Below are positions 28,314 to 39,484 of a stretch of 61,227 bases of DNA, piece after piece. The DNA is taken from contig DATCBN010000029.1 of assembly GCA_036511855.1 (NCBI GenBank), positions 1 to 61,227 of the forward strand. The letters are read 5' to 3'. Origin of the DNA: Candidatus Eremiobacteraceae bacterium. GTDB taxonomy: Bacteria > Vulcanimicrobiota > Vulcanimicrobiia > Eremiobacterales > Eremiobacteraceae. The notes beneath the pieces were generated by a model. It did no database searches. It saw only the letters and a program-made list of their open reading frames with translations, and was not told the DNA's origin. Position 1 is the stretch's first letter, and each line of letters begins with the position of its first letter. Made by a program: the position numbers and the translations under genes.

Positions 28314-29096
28314 ATGATTTCCTCCGGACGCGAAGGCGGCCGCGCCGACGACGAATTGCGGCCGGTCGTGATTCAGACGGGCTATCTCCGGTTTGCCAGC
28401 GGATCTGCGTTGGTCTCTTTCGGCGAGACCAAGGTGTTGTGCGCGGCGGCGATCGAGGATCGCGTGCCTCCGTTTCTCAAGGGCCAAGGCGTCGGCTGGG
28501 TGACGGCCGAGTACTCCTTGTTACCGCAAAGCACTGCGGACCGGACGCCGCGCGAATCGTCGAAAGGCCGCGTCGGCGGACGCACGCACGAGATCCAAAG
28601 ATTGATCGGGCGCTGCCTGCGGTCCGTCGTCGACACGCGGGCGCTTGGCGAACGGACGGTGACGCTCGATTGCGATGTGATCCAAGCAGACGGCGGCACG
28701 CGGACCGCGTCGGTCACCGGCGCATTCGTCGCTCTCTGCCTCGCGCTTTCGAAAGTGCGAGCTGCGGGTACGCTGCGAGGATGGCCGGTCGTCGACTGGC
28801 TGGCGGCGGTATCCGTGGGCGTCGTCGGCGGGCGCCCCTTGCTCGACCTCGACTATCAGGAGGATTCGCGAGCGCAAACGGATATGAACGTCGTCATGAC
28901 CGGCGATGGACGCTACGTCGAAGTGCAAGGCACGGCAGAAGATGAGCCGTTCAGCAAGAACGAGCTCGATCGGATGCTCGCGCTTGCCGGCCGCGGCATC
29001 AGCGCTTTGATCGACGCGCAGCGCGGCGCGCTGGCGGAATTCGGATTGCCCAACTTCGGCGGCAAAGCGGTTGCGGCAAAGGTTGGCAAGCCGTGA
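28314..29096 (+). CDS. rph: Ribonuclease PH
   Basis: RNase PH trims tRNA 3' ends by phosphorolysis. The 260-residue protein has the expected start after a short lead, then [30 protein letters not shown], the arginine-rich [21 protein letters not shown] (about 79-99) that contributes to phosphate binding, [16 protein letters not shown], and [19 protein letters not shown]. Its stop overlaps the GTG of the next small gene, linking it to the lipid-transport operon downstream. Confidence 0.95.
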
Positions 29097-29428
29097 GTAC
29101 GGCTCATTCGGCGGGACCGGCCCTCACCGATCTGGTCGACGCCTTTCGCATCACCGACCGCAGCCTGCAGCGAGCGCGCGAACGCCTCCGTGTCGAAGCG
29201 TCGCCGGATTCCGACGCGGAGTTCAGGCGTCACGCCCAGCGCTATTTCGCCTCGCTCGAGCGCGAGGCCCGAAACCATTTGGCCGATATCGATCGCAAGC
29301 TCGACGAACTCTATCAGCGGCAGTACAATCTGCAGGCGGAACGTGGAGTCGCGGAACGGCGCCTGGCCGGCGCGCGCGGCGTGCTCTCGGCGCTGCGCGA
29401 AACCGCCGGCGGGGAGGCCATCCTATGA
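29093..29428 (+). CDS. Small coiled-coil protein of unknown function, mla operon
   Basis: I do not recognize this 111-residue protein. It has no signal peptide or membrane helix and is strongly charged. Residues about 20-100 are predicted largely helical, with heptad-like spacing ([16 protein letters not shown], then [14 protein letters not shown]), so it likely forms a coiled coil. The GTG start overlaps the rph stop and its own stop overlaps mlaE (ATGA), so it is made in step with the transporter permease. A cytoplasmic partner of MlaE/MlaF, in the place of MlaB, is possible, but it shows no STAS-domain sequence. Confidence 0.7.
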
Positions 29429-30207
29429 GCGTCGCGGCTCACAATCCGGAGATCCCCGGCATCGACAATATCCGGCGCTTCTTCGCATACGCGGGCGGCA
29501 TGTCGATGCTCTTGGCCGACTCGTGCCGCTACATCTTCACGCTGCGATTCCGATTCAGCGAGGTGATGCACCAGGTCTATTTCCTGGGCGTGCAATCGTG
29601 GCCGATCATCATCTTGACGTCGCTGTTCACCGGCATGGTCATTTCGCTTGAGGCGGCGGCTCAAGCCGTCGCGTACGGCTTCGCCACGTTCATCGGCGGC
29701 ACCGTGGCATCGGGCGAGATCCGCGAGCTCGGTCCCATGCTCACCGGCATCGTGTTCGCCGGACGCGCAGGAGCCGCCGTCACCGCTCAGCTAGGATCTA
29801 TGGTGGTGACCGAGCAAGTCGAAGCGCTGCAATCCATGGGCGTGAGTCCGGCAAAGGTACTGGTCGCACCGCGCCTTCTGGCTTGCATCATCACCGTGCC
29901 CATGTTGACGATATTCGCGGATATCGTCGGCGTGCTCGGCGGGTTGTACATGGCGGAGTGGCAGGTGCATCTCGCACCTACGATCTACTGGCGGTCGGTC
30001 CAACAGATGGTCATCATGGACGACTTCTACAAGGGGCTGTTCAAAGCTGCCGTATTTGGTTTGATCGTCGCGTTGGTCGCCTGCTTCGAGGGGCTCCGGG
30101 CGCGCGGCGGCGCCGAAGGCGTCGGCAAGGTCACGACGAGTGCGGTCGTCACGGCGATCATCCTCATCTTCGGATTCAACTTCGTGCTGTCGTTCCTATT
30201 CTTCTGA
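29425..30207 (+). CDS. mlaE: MlaE-family lipid ABC transporter permease
   Basis: MlaE permeases form the inner-membrane channel of MCE lipid transporters. The 260-residue protein has about five to six hydrophobic segments and the family core: FTGMVISLEAAAQAV (about 71-85), IRELGPMLTGIVFAGRAGAAVTAQLGSM (split IRELGPMLTGIVFAGR, AGAAVTAQLGSM) and EQVEALQSMGVSP. The start at 29425 is fixed by the ATGA overlap with the coiled-coil gene; the upstream part of this frame is shadow. The ATPase gene follows after nine bases. Confidence 0.94.
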   Translation: MSVAAHNPEIPGIDNIRRFFAYAGGMSMLLADSCRYIFTLRFRFSEVMHQVYFLGVQSWPIIILTSLFTGMVISLEAAAQAVAYGFATFIGGTVASGEIRELGPMLTGIVFAGRAGAAVTAQLGSMVVTEQVEALQSMGVSPAKVLVAPRLLACIITVPMLTIFADIVGVLGGLYMAEWQVHLAPTIYWRSVQQMVIMDDFYKGLFKAAVFGLIVALVACFEGLRARGGAEGVGKVTTSAVVTAIILIFGFNFVLSFLFF

Positions 30208-30216
30208 TGGCCGGCC

Positions 30217-31023
30217 ATGATCGATCGTAGCGATCCGAGCCATCTCGAAAAGCCCGCCCAGCTGCCGCCGGACGACGTCGCCGTCAGCCTGCAGTGCGTG
30301 GAGATGCGCTACGGACCGAAGATCGTGCTCTCGGATTGCTCGATGGACTGCAAACGTGGCGAGATCACGTGCGTCATCGGGTTGTCGGGGGCCGGCAAGT
30401 CTTCCATCTTGCGGGTCATCAACGGACTTCGGCGGGCGCACCGGGGCCATGTGTTCATCAACAAAGTCGAAACCACGCACTTGAGCGAACGCGCGATGAT
30501 CGACATCCGCAAGAAGATGGGCTTTGCGTTTCAATACTCGGCGCTGTTCGACTCGCTGACCGTCGGCGAAAACGTGGGCTATCCCTTATACGAGCACACG
30601 ACGCTTTCGAACGACGAGATCCGGGCACGCGTCGATCAGACGCTGGAGGCGCTCGGCCTCGAAGGCGTCGATAAGAAGATGCCTGGCGAGATGTCGGGCG
30701 GTATGCAAAAACGCATCGGGTTCGCGCGCGCGGTCGTGAACGATCCCGAGATCATCCTCTTCGACGAACCCACAACCGGACTCGACCCGATCATGACGCA
30801 CGTGATCACCGACACGATCAAGCGGATGCAGACGAAGCTCAAGGCGACGTGCGTCGTCGTCTCGCACGATATGCCGTCGGTCTATGCGATCGCCGATAAT
30901 ATCGCGATGCTCTTCGAAGGCACGATCATCGAGTACGGCCCAGTAAGCCGCATCAAGGCTTCGAAGAACCCGATCGTACAACAATTTCTTGAGGGCAGCG
31001 AAGTTGGCCCGATCCCGATATAG
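30217..31023 (+). CDS. mlaF: MlaF-family lipid ABC transporter ATPase
   Basis: The 268-residue ATPase powers lipid movement between the inner membrane and the MCE protein. Walker A is GLSGAGKSS (near residues 49-57), the Q-loop is AFQYSALF, the signature is MSGGMQKR, Walker B is IILFDEPTTGLDP and the switch His is in VVVSHDM. The QYSALFDSLTVGENV sequence is typical of the MlaF/MKL branch. It sits between mlaE and the MCE gene, 17 bases before the latter. Confidence 0.95.
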   Translation: MIDRSDPSHLEKPAQLPPDDVAVSLQCVEMRYGPKIVLSDCSMDCKRGEITCVIGLSGAGKSSILRVINGLRRAHRGHVFINKVETTHLSERAMIDIRKKMGFAFQYSALFDSLTVGENVGYPLYEHTTLSNDEIRARVDQTLEALGLEGVDKKMPGEMSGGMQKRIGFARAVVNDPEIILFDEPTTGLDPIMTHVITDTIKRMQTKLKATCVVVSHDMPSVYAIADNIAMLFEGTIIEYGPVSRIKASKNPIVQQFLEGSEVGPIPI

Positions 31024-31040: not shown

Positions 31041-32546
31041 GTGGGCAGCCAAATACGCGTGGGAATCTTCACCATCCTCGCCCTGGCGGGCGCGGTGGCG
31101 GTTTACTACGTTCTCGAACACTCCAAGCACGCGGGTTACGACATCGGGGTGCATTTCAAGAACACCGCCGGACTCCAGTCCGGCTCGGCGGTGCAGCTGG
31201 CCGGCGTGGACGTCGGCGTCGTGAGCGACGTCCGGCTGCTGCCCGACCAGACCGCGGTCGTTATCTGCAACATCAATCCTGCGAACGATATCTATCGCGA
31301 GTCGACGTTCATCATCACCACCACGTTGACCGGCCAATCTTCCGTTCAGATCTATCCGCCGAAAGTTCTGGCAAAGGCCACGAAACTGCCGCACGAGATT
31401 GGAAACGAGGCGGAAATGCCCGAGGGTGAGCTGCCGCCCTCGCTCGCCGACCTGGCCACCGAGGGCGAATCGCGGCTGCATTCGCTCGACGCCACCATCG
31501 CGACGGTTAACCGCGAATTGCCGCGGATAACGCGGGCCTTTTACGGCCTGGCAAATCATAGCGACCAGCTTGTCGTTCATGCAGACAGCACGCTCGTCCG
31601 GTTATCGGCCGATCTAGACGCGACCGTGTCCGACCTCAACCGTGTGGTCGTCACGAGCGGGGCAAACCTGCAGCAGGTCACGGCCAGCACGAATGGGATG
31701 ATCGGCGACAACCGCAAGCGCATAAATCTGCTGCTGGAAAATCTGGCAGCGACGTCGACGAGCGCTCGACGGTCTATGGAAAATATCGCTGCGATCACAT
31801 CGGACCCGTCGCTGAAGAAAAATCTATTGTCCACCGCGGATAGCATCTCGGCAGCGGCTGCCCAAATAAAAGCCATCGCAACCGATGTGCACAGCATCAC
31901 GGGCGACCCAGACGTCCAATCCAATCTGAAAGGGGCAGTCGGCAATCTAAGCGCCGCCATCGCTCGAGCGAATTTGCTGTTGGGAAATTTCGCAAACGAC
32001 TCCGGGAACGGCGCTCCGCAGAACGGGCGAGGGCAGCCGCCGTCGTCACCGGGGCCACAGCCAAAACCGGGTGCTAACGGCGGAACGCCGGGCCCACTTG
32101 TCTCACAACCTGCGGCGGTCCGGAAAGCCCGCCAAGGCTTAGCGTTGCTTTCGACAAGCATCAGGGAGACATGGAGCAACGCAGGCGGGGGTCCCGCAAG
32201 CGACATCAACCTGACGTTGCTGCCGAGCCTTGGCTCGCACGTGACGCTCGGTGCGAACGATCTCGGCTACCACACGACCTACAACGCCCTGTTCGAGACA
32301 TCGCGTTCGCCAGGACTCACGCTTTCCGGCGGCATCCTTTACTCTACGCTTGGTTTGAAGGCCGTGCTCAACCCCAGAGGCATCATCGCTCTCGACGCTC
32401 GGCTCTACGACGCCAAGCATCCGAAGTTCGACATTTACGGAAACCTGCGCCTGAGCGAGCGGCTCCGTCTATTCTACGGAGAACGCAACGCGCTGCTGAA
32501 CAACGGTCCACGCCTCCCGTCCTTTGGCATCGAGCTGAAGAATTAG
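31041..32546 (+). CDS. mlaD: MCE-domain lipid transport protein (MlaD type) with C-terminal beta-rich, barrel-like domain
   Basis: The 501-residue protein is far longer than proteobacterial MlaD (about 180). Residues 7-24 form one inner-membrane anchor. The MCE domain (about 35-115) includes FKNTAGLQSGSAVQLAGVDVG (split FKNTAGLQSG, VQLAGVDVG). A long helical stretch follows to about 315, rich in Ala, Leu and Asn. A Pro/Gly/Asn linker covers about 316-352. The last 114 residues (388-501) alternate polar and hydrophobic positions in short strands (INLTLLPSLG, LTLSGGILYS, IIALDARLYD, FDIYGNLRLS), which looks like an outer-membrane beta domain. This matches the envelope-spanning MlaD described from diderm Firmicutes such as Veillonella. 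The GTG start at 31041 directly precedes the anchor helix. Confidence 0.88.
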   Translation: MGSQIRVGIFTILALAGAVAVYYVLEHSKHAGYDIGVHFKNTAGLQSGSAVQLAGVDVGVVSDVRLLPDQTAVVICNINPANDIYRESTFIITTTLTGQSSVQIYPPKVLAKATKLPHEIGNEAEMPEGELPPSLADLATEGESRLHSLDATIATVNRELPRITRAFYGLANHSDQLVVHADSTLVRLSADLDATVSDLNRVVVTSGANLQQVTASTNGMIGDNRKRINLLLENLAATSTSARRSMENIAAITSDPSLKKNLLSTADSISAAAAQIKAIATDVHSITGDPDVQSNLKGAVGNLSAAIARANLLLGNFANDSGNGAPQNGRGQPPSSPGPQPKPGANGGTPGPLVSQPAAVRKARQGLALLSTSIRETWSNAGGGPASDINLTLLPSLGSHVTLGANDLGYHTTYNALFETSRSPGLTLSGGILYSTLGLKAVLNPRGIIALDARLYDAKHPKFDIYGNLRLSERLRLFYGERNALLNNGPRLPSFGIELKN

Positions 32547-33696: not shown

Positions 33697-35844
33697 TCAC
33701 GTGCCGGCGCCGCCGCCGATGCGCAAGACGTACTTGACGATGAGCCGGTCCAGGGTGGCGCTTGCGGCCGGGGTCCCGAAGTTGATGAACAGCTCGTCGC
33801 TGTTGTGAAACCGCTCGTGAAGGCCGACCGCGAGGTTGATGCCCGGTGCGGCGAATCCGCCGTTTCCGTTGACTGAGCGAAGCGCGATCGACACGTTCGT
33901 ATCCGGACCGAACGACTCGCCGATGCCTATGCGTCGCAGCAATTGTCCGTCGTTAGAGCCGTTGTCAAATCGCTCGTGCGTGCCGTCATACTCGAGCGTG
34001 AGGTTGAAGCGCGTTCCAAGTGCCCGCGACGTAGACGACGCGAACTGCTGCAGGTAGAAATTCGAAAACCGGCCGGCGCCGTACGACGCGTCCACCGGTG
34101 ACGGGGTGCCATCGCGATACCCCAAAGCAAGCGTGGTCGCATTGAACGGAAGCGCGACGCCGCCCGTGAAGATCGGATCGTCGAACTCGCTTGTAGCTTG
34201 AGAGAGGCTGACCTGCACCAGGTCCGGGAACACGAAATCGACGTTGCCGAAGAAATCGGCGGAATGCACCGTTCCATCGCGCGCGAGTAGCCGGTCGCCG
34301 GCGAGGAACGAGGTGAACGACTTCACGCCCGCCCACGTGGTGTTCGAATCGAACGTGTAGATGGGCCCCCGGGCGTCGTTGAATGGCGTGATGCCGTCGA
34401 GCGGCGAGTAGCCCGGGCTGATGTCTTCGTAGCCGTACAGCCATTCGTAGTTCGGCTTGTGCACGTCGACGAATCCGTTGCGTTCGTAGCCGAATGCCTG
34501 AGGGGCAAGCGACAGATTGCTGGTTTCGAGCGCCTGATTGTAGCCGTAGACGAATCCGCTGGCGAGATCGCGGCCTTTGAAGCCCGACTCGACGGTGGAA
34601 TCGTCGCCGATATCGTGGTGCGCCAAGACGCCGTCCACCCAGTACGCAAAAGTGCCGTCAGACAATTGGTGATTGAAGCCGAACGCGCTGTCGTCGATGG
34701 CGGAACCATCCGGTGCGAGGCCGCGCACGTTGAGCAATCCGATCGATTGCAGGCCGTACGTGCCTTCCAGTTTGAGACCGCGGTCGAACGTGCCGATGCC
34801 GGGCGTGTAGAACACCTGATAGGCAGGCCCTGAAAGCCCACCCTCCGGCGCTTGAGATGGCGAGAAGTATTGCGCGCCTTGTGCGAAAAACGGCCGGTAC
34901 TCGTTGAGATTCCGGCGGAATTCCTGCGGCGCGATGGTCTGCTGGTCCACTTCGACGTTGGAAAAATCCGGGTTCAGCGTTCCGACGACTGAGATGGTGT
35001 TGGTTGTGGGATACGTGAAATCGAGCCCGTAATTTCTGACCGGTTGATCGGTAAACGCTCCGTTAGCCTGCTGGAACTGCTTGCGGTCGCTTCCGGCGCT
35101 TTCCAAACCGTAGAGTTCCGCGCGCGGCTGAGGTCTCGCTGCCCGCGTTTTGATATCGACGCCGGTGAGCGACGGCCAGAAACGAGCATCGGTGAAGAGC
35201 GGATATGCAGGCGGCTGGGCGTCTTGCATCACGCCGTTATACGCCCAGGTGTAATGCTCGCCGACCGCCGCGACGCCGCGTATGAAACTAAAGCGCCAAT
35301 CGTGGCCGCCGCTTGCGCGCAGCACTTTCAGCGGAATGACCAAGACGGCGTTCCATGCGGTGCCATTGACGCTTGCATATGCTCGCCACGGCGGGTCGTA
35401 TCGCGTCGATTCGCTGGCTTGCTGATAACGGACGCCGCGCGGCGTCGTCTCGAAATAGTAGACCTGGGTGCCGTTGCCGGACGGGTCCAGTCCGACGCCG
35501 ACGAAATCGTCCTGGCCGAAGCCCACGTTGTTCGTGGTTTGCGCGGCGTGGATCTGAGCGCCCGATTGCTCGCTGCGAAACGCGACATAGATGTTGTCGG
35601 CGTCGTACAGCACCGACGCGGTGGTGGCGAGCGGCGCGACGACGTGGGTGGTGATGTCGTAGAAGCCGGTCACCGAAAGCGCTTTTTGCCAAACCGGATC
35701 CGCTAAAGACGCGTCGCTCTCACTTGCAGGCGTGCCGCGCACCGCGGCAAACGAGGCCGTGCGAGCCACCGAAGCCTGCGCGTGCGCCGGCAGCATCGCG
35801 ACCATAGCCATCCCGACGATGACTGCATAGAGCGGCCGTCCCAT
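33697..35844 (-). CDS. DUF5916-type outer-membrane protein with N-terminal carbohydrate-binding-like domain
   Basis: The 715-residue exported protein has a signal peptide (MGRPLYAVIVGMAMVAMLPAHA, cut near residue 24 after AHAQA). Residues about 40-210 resemble the CBM9-like domain found in DUF5916 proteins (SLADPVWQKA, VLYDADNIYVAFRS). The rest is rich in alternating, aromatic strands ending at an Arg/Gly tail and is predicted to be an outer-membrane barrel (GTLNPDFSNVEVDQQ and FRRNLNEYRPFFAQG are typical family blocks). Ligand and role are unknown. I chose the ATG at 35844 because AAGGAG lies just upstream and it starts the signal peptide; the frame extends 15 codons further. Confidence 0.82.
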   Translation of the reverse strand: MGRPLYAVIVGMAMVAMLPAHAQASVARTASFAAVRGTPASESDASLADPVWQKALSVTGFYDITTHVVAPLATTASVLYDADNIYVAFRSEQSGAQIHAAQTTNNVGFGQDDFVGVGLDPSGNGTQVYYFETTPRGVRYQQASESTRYDPPWRAYASVNGTAWNAVLVIPLKVLRASGGHDWRFSFIRGVAAVGEHYTWAYNGVMQDAQPPAYPLFTDARFWPSLTGVDIKTRAARPQPRAELYGLESAGSDRKQFQQANGAFTDQPVRNYGLDFTYPTTNTISVVGTLNPDFSNVEVDQQTIAPQEFRRNLNEYRPFFAQGAQYFSPSQAPEGGLSGPAYQVFYTPGIGTFDRGLKLEGTYGLQSIGLLNVRGLAPDGSAIDDSAFGFNHQLSDGTFAYWVDGVLAHHDIGDDSTVESGFKGRDLASGFVYGYNQALETSNLSLAPQAFGYERNGFVDVHKPNYEWLYGYEDISPGYSPLDGITPFNDARGPIYTFDSNTTWAGVKSFTSFLAGDRLLARDGTVHSADFFGNVDFVFPDLVQVSLSQATSEFDDPIFTGGVALPFNATTLALGYRDGTPSPVDASYGAGRFSNFYLQQFASSTSRALGTRFNLTLEYDGTHERFDNGSNDGQLLRRIGIGESFGPDTNVSIALRSVNGNGGFAAPGINLAVGLHERFHNSDELFINFGTPAASATLDRLIVKYVLRIGGGAGT

Positions 35845-35951
35845 CAACTCCTTACGAATTAGTTGCACGCGCCTTCGTTCGGAGCACAAGCGGACTTCAT
35901 CCTGCTTCCATTCAAAGAGCGACAGCCTTTGTGAAGACCCGGAGGACGACC

Positions 35952-37009: not shown

Positions 37010-39484
37010 TCAATACCGGCGGGTCAGCACTAAGGTGACCGCCCTGCCTTGTAGCGAGAAAGCATCGGTGGGCAGGGGACCGTCCGCACCTCCGTACGGT
37101 CGCCCCTGATCCGCAAGCGTGAAGCGGTCATCGTATGCGTTCGTGAGATTCGTTCCGTATAATCCGATGTCGAACACCCTCCCGCGCAAGGCGACGCCGG
37201 CATGTATGGTGGCATATGCGGGCCGGTTGAGTTCGTTGAACGCATCCTCGTACGAGGCGCCGATCTCGTACGCGAACCCCAGTCCAGGGTCACGTTGCAG
37301 CGAGAGCACTGCCCGATGCAGGGGCACGCCGGCCGACTGTTCGCCCGGAACGATGGTGCCGTCTTGGAAGTCCGGACTCACGGACGTCACGAACGAACTG
37401 TCAACGCTGTAGGCAAAGCGCACAACCGTCGACGCGGCGACGGCGCGTTCGGCGCGGAACTCGATGCCGCGATAGACCGCGCCACCGGCGTTGATCGGAA
37501 AGCTTTCGCATTCTTGCGGCGGCGGGTTGTTGGGTGGAAGACACTGAACGGGCGGAAAGAAGCGCACGGCCGGAGTTCGCACGTTCGTCTGGTAGACGTC
37601 GAAGTCGAAACGCGTATTGTGCTCGGCGCTGAGCACATGTGCGATGCCAAGGTCGTAGTCGGTCGCGTGGTCCGCTTTCAAATTCGGATTGCCCACGTTG
37701 ATGAAACCGTCGGCATCCGGAGGCGGCAGTTCCGATGGAAGAAATAGCTCCGGAAGTTGAGGCGATTGAAATGTGATGCCCGCCGAGACGCGGACCGCGG
37801 TTTGCGCGGTCGGCGTCCACACGAGACCCAAACGAGGATCCGTGCTCGATCCAAAGCTGGAGAAGTTGCTGAAGTACAGGGCCGCGCTGTAGTGGAGTTT
37901 CGGCGTCGTGTCAAACGCGTAGCGAACGACGGCCGATCGCTGCGTCTGCGTGAGTTCGGGGAGCGGCTGCGGTCCGGAGCCATCGTCGAGCAGCCCGATC
38001 CGGCGGCCGCGCGATTGGTCCGGCGTTCCGCCGATCAACGTCTGCGTGTCAAGGCGCTCCGAACGCAGATCGAATTTGATTGAAAATGTTCCCTGTGCAA
38101 GCGTGCGGTCGAATTGCAACGTGTCGTCAGCCGAAAGATCGTGCGTGTTGAAAAGATACGGCGTGGTGCTCGATGCCGGACCTTCGACAGATTGATCGGC
38201 CAGCGAGGTGAGGTGACGGAACACTGCGGTCGTCGGATACTGACCATCGGTGTCGGGTTGTCCGAGCGGCATCTGGACGTCAAGCCCGTACGCGCTGTCG
38301 TGCGCTTGCAGCGATGACCCGGCGAAGCTGTTGAAGACCGGCGGCTCCTCATCGGCAGGACCGGCACCGTCGTCACCGCCCCCTTCGTCGGATGCGACAA
38401 CCGACGACATTGCGGCCGAGAGATCGCGGTACTCGCTCTGATCGCGAACAGTGAATCCGACGTAGCTGCCGCGGAGTCCAAGGTCGTACCGGAGTTTGAG
38501 CAAGCCCGTGCTGCCGTCGACGGCGCTCCCGACGGTATCCGTGTCGCCGTCGGTGTTCAAAATCGACTGCCCGTTGACTTCGCCTTGGCTCGTCGTGCGA
38601 TGAACCGAGAACGCGTACCCGAGGCGAGCGGCGGATCCCGTTGCCTGCAACGTTTCGCCAAAAGCTCCGTACGAACCAACGGACAGGCGGATGAGACCCG
38701 CCCCTTGAGCCGTAGGATCGAGCGTGCGCACGTTGATCGCGCCATCGATGGTGTTCGGCCCCACGAGCGACGACGGACCGATTCCGTAGACAAGCTGCAC
38801 GCCGGCGAGTTCCGCCGGATCGACGAGCGACAGATCAAATGAGCCTGTGCCGCCGCTGTTGACGGAGTGGCCGTCGATGTCGACAAGCGTTTCTGTTGGG
38901 TCCGGCCCTCGAAGCGCGACCACAGCCGGCGCGGCGGGATTACCACCTGCGGGCCTGATGACGGTGACGGAAATAGCATCTTGCGATATCAGATCGGCGA
39001 CGCTGGTGCCTCCGCTTGCCGCATACTGTTGCGACGCCAGCTCCTGACTCGGCACCGACGACGTCGAGAGCGCCTCGCCGGCCCGCGTCGTCACGTGTCC
39101 GAGTACGACAAGCGAAGACGTCGAGCGGACGAGCTCGATTCGGACATCGGTTTCCTGGCCGCCGCGGATCTCAATGGTGCGGCCTCCGACCGGGGCGTAT
39201 CCGGCCGCAGTCACCGACACGTCGTAGATCCCAGGTGCGAGGCCTGTAAGTCTGGTTACTCCGCCGGGATATGTGAGAAACGACCGGACGACTTTGTTTC
39301 CGCGCAGCGTGACAAATGCACCGGAAATTGTCCGGTTGTCGGCGCTCAGGACCACGACGGTGATCTCGCCGGTGGCCGGCTCGGAAATTGCCGCAAGTGG
39401 GGCGACGAGAATCACGCACAGCATTGCTGCAATTGCGGCTGTGTGCGTGCGCGCGCAAGCTCGAAGTATCTCGAGAAAGACCAT
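37010..39484 (-). CDS. TonB-dependent receptor with N-terminal carboxypeptidase-regulatory-like domain
   Basis: The 824-residue protein is predicted to be an outer-membrane barrel importing a ligand with TonB energy. A signal peptide covers about 1-35. A CarboxypepD_reg-like beta-sandwich (about 38-117, AFVTLRGNKVVRSF, APGIYDVSVTAAGYAP) precedes the plug domain (VADLISQDAISVTV, VALRGPDPTETLVDIDGH near 195-212). The barrel ends in LVLTRRY, with a terminal aromatic residue as usual for outer-membrane proteins. The family mostly takes up siderophores, vitamin B12 or glycans; nothing nearby identifies the ligand. A GGAG site precedes the ATG at 39484. A membrane-protein gene lies 43 bases upstream on the same strand. 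Confidence 0.9.
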   Translation of the reverse strand: MVFLEILRACARTHTAAIAAMLCVILVAPLAAISEPATGEITVVVLSADNRTISGAFVTLRGNKVVRSFLTYPGGVTRLTGLAPGIYDVSVTAAGYAPVGGRTIEIRGGQETDVRIELVRSTSSLVVLGHVTTRAGEALSTSSVPSQELASQQYAASGGTSVADLISQDAISVTVIRPAGGNPAAPAVVALRGPDPTETLVDIDGHSVNSGGTGSFDLSLVDPAELAGVQLVYGIGPSSLVGPNTIDGAINVRTLDPTAQGAGLIRLSVGSYGAFGETLQATGSAARLGYAFSVHRTTSQGEVNGQSILNTDGDTDTVGSAVDGSTGLLKLRYDLGLRGSYVGFTVRDQSEYRDLSAAMSSVVASDEGGGDDGAGPADEEPPVFNSFAGSSLQAHDSAYGLDVQMPLGQPDTDGQYPTTAVFRHLTSLADQSVEGPASSTTPYLFNTHDLSADDTLQFDRTLAQGTFSIKFDLRSERLDTQTLIGGTPDQSRGRRIGLLDDGSGPQPLPELTQTQRSAVVRYAFDTTPKLHYSAALYFSNFSSFGSSTDPRLGLVWTPTAQTAVRVSAGITFQSPQLPELFLPSELPPPDADGFINVGNPNLKADHATDYDLGIAHVLSAEHNTRFDFDVYQTNVRTPAVRFFPPVQCLPPNNPPPQECESFPINAGGAVYRGIEFRAERAVAASTVVRFAYSVDSSFVTSVSPDFQDGTIVPGEQSAGVPLHRAVLSLQRDPGLGFAYEIGASYEDAFNELNRPAYATIHAGVALRGRVFDIGLYGTNLTNAYDDRFTLADQGRPYGGADGPLPTDAFSLQGRAVTLVLTRRY

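Follow-up and report, generated by a model that had tools for sequence, protein, structure and literature searches.

Can a single MlaD protein span a bacterial envelope by itself, from the inner to the outer membrane? The question is raised by a gene in the window analysed here, a 61,227-nucleotide stretch of an Eremiobacterota genome whose named relatives are listed as Candidatus Eremiobacterota or Vulcanimicrobiota. The open reading frame, whose frame and coordinates were confirmed (Table 1), begins with a GTG at 31041, eight bases downstream of a GGAGG box, and encodes an elongated MlaD of 501 residues. An initial annotation of this DNA had described an anchor helix followed by one MCE domain, a shaft, a Pro-rich linker and a beta-rich tail, encoded in an mlaE-mlaF operon, and this order of domains and genes is what we find. 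The Pfam MCE/MlaD model PF02470 matches residues 32-106 (E=5e-11), and this protein is the only one with an MCE match in its own 3.07 Mb genome. A full-length AlphaFold2 model, built with 18 relatives, places the anchor in a helix at residues 3-27 and has Mce1 of M. smegmatis and MlaD structures as its top Foldseek matches. Directly upstream lie mlaE and mlaF, recognised by PF02405, TIGR00056 and PF00005; the mlaF product has the NCBIfam MlaF model as its top match in that collection, with a score below that model's equivalog cut-off. The ATG of mlaE at 29425 overlaps the stop codon of the preceding open reading frame, ORF111 (ATGA), and the order gmk-glmS-rph-ORF111-mlaE-mlaF-mlaD is largely kept in the named Eremiobacterota loci, as far as the contig extends. 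Two large proteins encoded near the operon on the minus strand resemble outer-membrane proteins: a DUF5916/CBM9-like protein at 33697-35889 and a TonB-dependent receptor at 37010-39484.

Table 1. Features of the mla locus, in window coordinates, with the domains of the elongated MlaD.
Feature	Position	Strand	Evidence
111-aa conserved ORF (ORF111), possible Mla accessory	29093..29428	+	upstream of mlaE in 15/17 named Eremiobacterota loci
mlaE, MlaE-family permease	29425..30207	+	PF02405 E=3.5e-72; TIGR00056
mlaF, ABC ATPase	30217..31023	+	PF00005 E=2.5e-31; MlaF model is top NCBIfam match
elongated mlaD, proposed trans-envelope MCE protein	31041..32546	+	ORF; PF02470; phylum-wide homologues
inner-membrane anchor helix, residues 3-27	31047..31121	+	helix in model; hydrophobic segment
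MCE/MlaD domain, residues 32-106	31134..31358	+	Pfam; Foldseek matches to solved MlaD structures
helical shaft, residues 135-315, four helices	31443..31985	+	periodicity 3.58; helices in low-pLDDT model
Pro/Gly-rich flexible linker, residues 316-368	31986..32144	+	no secondary structure, low pLDDT; conserved prolines
ten-stranded beta-barrel domain, residues 369-501, predicted outer-membrane	32145..32543	+	AF2; structural matches; face pattern, C-terminal signature

In the reading that we favour, and consider probable, this protein is the MlaD of a three-part MlaE-MlaF-MlaD lipid transporter and spans the envelope unaided. Its N-terminal helix would anchor it in the inner membrane on MlaE, and six copies, if known MCE proteins are a guide, would form an MCE ring from which the amphipathic helices could come together as a hydrophobically lined tunnel through the periplasm. 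Slack would be provided by the Pro-rich linker, and the fold and C-terminal signature of the ten-stranded barrel suggest that BAM would insert one such barrel per subunit into the outer membrane. With MlaF supplying the power, lipids, the presumed cargo, would then travel through this tunnel and need neither the MlaC shuttle nor MlaA in the outer membrane. This reading draws on the domain order, homology, the operon, the barrel prediction and the absence of MlaA and MlaC; counted against it are the narrowness of a ten-stranded barrel relative to a phospholipid, the low pLDDT and proline breaks of the shaft, the matches of the tail to soluble barrels, and an ending in N or T.

The shaft is modelled as helices 135-205, 212-249, 256-286 and 290-315 with a pLDDT mostly of 35-55, and the helical region of Veillonella MlaD is likewise without a confident model (PMC10665443). 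Family-averaged hydrophobicity over residues 135-315 repeats with a period of 3.58 residues, which was equalled in 0 of 1000 shuffles, and the helical moment exceeds the strand moment in 120 of 169 thirteen-residue segments of the shaft, compared with 7 of 121 segments for the tail. Judged by this periodicity the shaft is helical, with a low-confidence model and with breaks at prolines 256 and 290, both conserved in 90% of relatives. The long helical shaft of the initial annotation thus stands in part: helices do separate the MCE domain from the tail, in the model as in the periodicity, but there are four of them rather than one unbroken helix. Placed end to end, their 166 residues at 1.5 Å each would reach about 25 nm; the periplasm of V. 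parvula has been measured at 24.2 nm (PMC10665443). Between shaft and barrel, the linker proposed earlier is indeed present as 53 disordered, Pro/Gly-rich residues, with prolines at 333, 337 and 341 in 69-86% of relatives.

It is on the shaft that the stronger of the alternatives turns, namely that the outer-membrane barrel is only a tether and that lipids exit from the shaft before reaching the outer membrane, by way of an open groove or loose helices and with no continuous tunnel. This differs from the favoured reading solely in the route taken by the lipids, and we regard it as possible though rather unlikely. It would accommodate the low pLDDT of the shaft, its conserved proline breaks and the long disordered stretch before the barrel, and for the Veillonella protein modelling gave a groove as well as a tunnel, with the barrel of that protein described by the authors as too narrow for a phospholipid (PMC10665443). 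It sits less easily with the helical stripe, which keeps its phase over the whole of residues 135-315, and with the related Mce1 and PqiB structures, which are closed helical tunnels (PMC10665443).

The bridge would also require the tail to be a membrane barrel, and here the prediction is considerably more confident than for the shaft. Modelled alone with AF2, residues 364-501 fold into ten strands (pLDDT 90, pTM 0.80), the same as those of the full-length model, where they occupy 370-379, 386-393, 399-408, 413-423, 426-433, 436-443, 449-456, 462-470, 475-482 and 492-500, with a pLDDT mostly above 80 and short loops on both sides of the barrel. The C-terminal beta-rich domain of 114 residues that had been proposed is therefore beta-rich as claimed, with its ten strands at 370-500, but it starts near 369 and not at 388. 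A sequence search of the PDB with the tail alone gave nothing convincing. Most Foldseek hits of the tail model are barrels of the outer membrane or designed transmembrane barrels, at modest E-values, and in a second structural alignment the best match was OpcA (Z 16.0, 2.8 Å, 135 residues), followed by a Legionella porin (Z 15.3), Pla (Z 14.8) and the designed ten-stranded transmembrane barrel TMB10_163 (Z 13.9). Soluble ten-stranded barrels match as well, at lower scores (Rv2717c Z 12.1, nitrobindin Z 11.9, FABP4 Z 8.8). The suggestion of a barrel in the initial annotation is thus supported: what is predicted is a ten-stranded barrel that most resembles those of outer membranes, rather than a soluble globular fold.

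As soluble barrels also fit the fold, the fold is by itself insufficient to establish membrane insertion, and the sequence of the tail has to be considered. In all ten strands, taking alternate residues, the more hydrophobic face is 65% VILMFWYC and 5% charged, whereas the opposite face is 23% VILMFWYC and 25% charged; a soluble calycin/nitrobindin-like barrel, with a polar outer face and a hydrophobic interior, may have two-faced strands as well. The C-terminal position falls on the hydrophobic face; the terminal residue is F, Y or W in 39 of 49 phylum sequences, and in many relatives the ending, such as FGLQYQF, resembles the LGLVYQF end of E. coli OmpC. Outer-membrane proteins have a C-terminal aromatic residue, which faces lipid. 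We infer an outer-membrane barrel because the strands are two-faced and the C-terminal aromatic lies on the face that in outer-membrane proteins is directed at lipid; the tail, then, is predicted to be a barrel, and its insertion in the outer membrane is suggested by the fold matches, the two faces and the C-terminal signature. The MlaD proteins of the query's own genus end in LKN or VKT (window positions 32520-32543 for the protein here), so that the last residue is N or T and the terminal aromatic has been lost.

This loss is one of the points that could be cited for an alternative in which the tail is a barrel soluble in the periplasm, similar to nitrobindin or the fatty-acid-binding proteins, that encloses a lipid and passes it to some other outer-membrane partner, with the protein itself not crossing the outer membrane. 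The short loops on both sides of the barrel would suit such a domain, as would the Z scores of 9-12 of soluble ten-stranded barrels against the tail model. We nevertheless consider it improbable: the top-ranking matches are outer-membrane barrels, at higher Z and almost complete coverage, the C-terminal residue falls on the hydrophobic face as in the OmpC-type signature, most relatives have the terminal aromatic, and the Veillonella barrel, on its own, goes to outer-membrane fractions (PMC10665443).

If MlaD bridges the envelope, the parts that do this work elsewhere should be dispensable, and the absence of MlaA and MlaC is what the idea of a one-protein bridge predicts. Neither was found in any of the 148 phylum genomes tested (0/148), the query's own genome being among the negatives, while the E. 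coli and Caulobacter controls were positive. This supports the idea, and the proposal in the initial annotation that functions split among several proteins in proteobacteria are united here fits the absence of both from genome and phylum. The split, E. coli-type arrangement is rejected because MlaA and MlaC are absent, and with neither an MlaC shuttle nor an MlaA lipoprotein the six-component E. coli Mla system is not the one carried by these 148 genomes. The genome does encode an Omp85/BamA-type protein, TamB and LpxC, and the cultured relative Vulcanimicrobium alpinus has a Gram-negative wall and an outer membrane covered with LPS (PMC9758169). The genes for TamB and the Omp85/BamA-type protein stand side by side in the query genome (C43:19230-22677). 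In V. parvula, Mla and TamB have been proposed to move lipids in opposite directions (PMC10665443).

A homologue, whole or in part, is present in 60 of the 61 genomes formed by the query and its 60 nearest relatives. Across the phylum, an MCE match was obtained in 141 of 149 genomes and a match to the tail profile in 137 of 149, a distribution that rules out chance, and several of the genomes without a tail match are incomplete or have the gene cut by a contig end. The exception is one family of the phylum, with three genomes, whose MCE proteins, as read, have a different, barrel-less end (KNPRKYLTVQ...F) and repeats of a GKGTLG-like motif, with mlaE/mlaF-type genes nearby; here replacement by another type of MlaD is possible. 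In the 239 genomes of other phyla that were searched, 191 carry an MCE protein and 34 match the tail profile at E<=1e-3, giving 171 matching genomes in all. All 13 of the other-phylum tail matches examined are MlaD-type proteins, read as 422 to 547 residues long, that carry the tail at their C-terminal end or close to it; nine have both mlaE and mlaF as neighbours, two more have one of these genes, and at the other two loci neither was recognised in the stretch taken. The tail profile of Eremiobacteria aligns with the tails of other phyla at an hhalign probability of 99 (E=3.6e-18). A plasmid collection searched with a tail taken from a different class of the phylum gave no match, and no relative was confirmed in viral contigs. 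Bacterium HR32, which is not labelled Eremiobacterota, has a tail-bearing MlaD behind mlaE and mlaF.

The Eremiobacteria class forms a single clade, fully or almost fully supported, in the tree of the MCE domain as well as in that of the tail, and both leave the deeper branching order unsettled; as far as these sequences go, this is consistent with, though not proof of, an old common inheritance of MCE domain and tail. That the tail was joined on by accident, or in this genome alone, through an assembly error or a recent domain gain, has next to no likelihood and is rejected by its distribution over the 137 phylum and 34 other-phylum genomes and by the recovery of the class in both trees, with no finding in its favour.

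How does this protein compare with those already characterised? The elongated MlaD of V. parvula has a TM helix, an MCE domain, a helical region and a ten-stranded barrel, with the barrel found in outer-membrane fractions and the MCE part in the inner membrane, and barrel-bearing MlaD has already been reported across diderm Terrabacteria (Grasekamp et al., 2023; PMC10665443). By this published description the protein here is alike in having a single MCE domain behind a TM helix, a helical region and a predicted C-terminal ten-stranded barrel, and in its MlaE and MlaF partners with no MlaA or MlaC (PMC10665443). It differs in length (501 versus 419 residues), in its longer helical part (about 180 versus 150 residues), in its 53-residue Pro/Gly-rich linker and in the phylum to which it belongs. 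With the MlaD of E. coli (MlaFEDB) it shares the MCE fold and the MlaE/MlaF context, but that protein is a barrel-less one of 183 residues whose partners are MlaB, MlaC and MlaA. Mce1 of Mycobacterium smegmatis (8fed, 8fef) likewise has a TM helix, an MCE domain and long helices; it is, however, a heterohexamer with one small shared barrel to which each subunit contributes one strand (PMC10665443), in contrast to a complete barrel per subunit here. PqiB and LetB/YebT of E. coli are MCE proteins that match the MCE part by sequence, and PqiB has a helical tunnel, but in these proteins each chain has more than one MCE domain, and an outer-membrane barrel is lacking.

The architecture is thus a known one, of the Veillonella type, and what is new, and well supported, is its nearly phylum-wide presence in Eremiobacterota, where it is the rule. 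Eremiobacterota, WPS-2 and Armatimonadota all go unmentioned in the main text of Grasekamp et al. (2023; PMC10665443), and a full-text literature search for Eremiobacterota together with MlaD yielded no relevant paper. The earlier suggestion of a bridge design across diderm Terrabacteria holds in that the design is present here, but, its spread having been published already (PMC10665443), the present finding adds to an existing conclusion. The one-protein envelope bridge proposed from Veillonella would be the usual MlaD in Eremiobacterota, and a sequence profile of its barrel tail picks out MlaD proteins in other phyla as well. This lends support, short of proof, to the published view of MlaEFD with a barrel-tailed MlaD as an old version of Mla.

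A further feature of the locus is ORF111, which is predicted to be helical and has a conserved core around RYF..LEREA..HL.D.DRRL....Q..FNL.AERGVA.RR, with no family in Pfam or NCBIfam. The MlaB of E. coli is a STAS protein. It is tempting to speculate, tentatively, that ORF111 might be a new cytoplasmic subunit of the barrel-type Mla in Eremiobacteria, in the place of E. coli MlaB, in which case the system would consist of an MlaD bridge together with a lineage-specific regulator.
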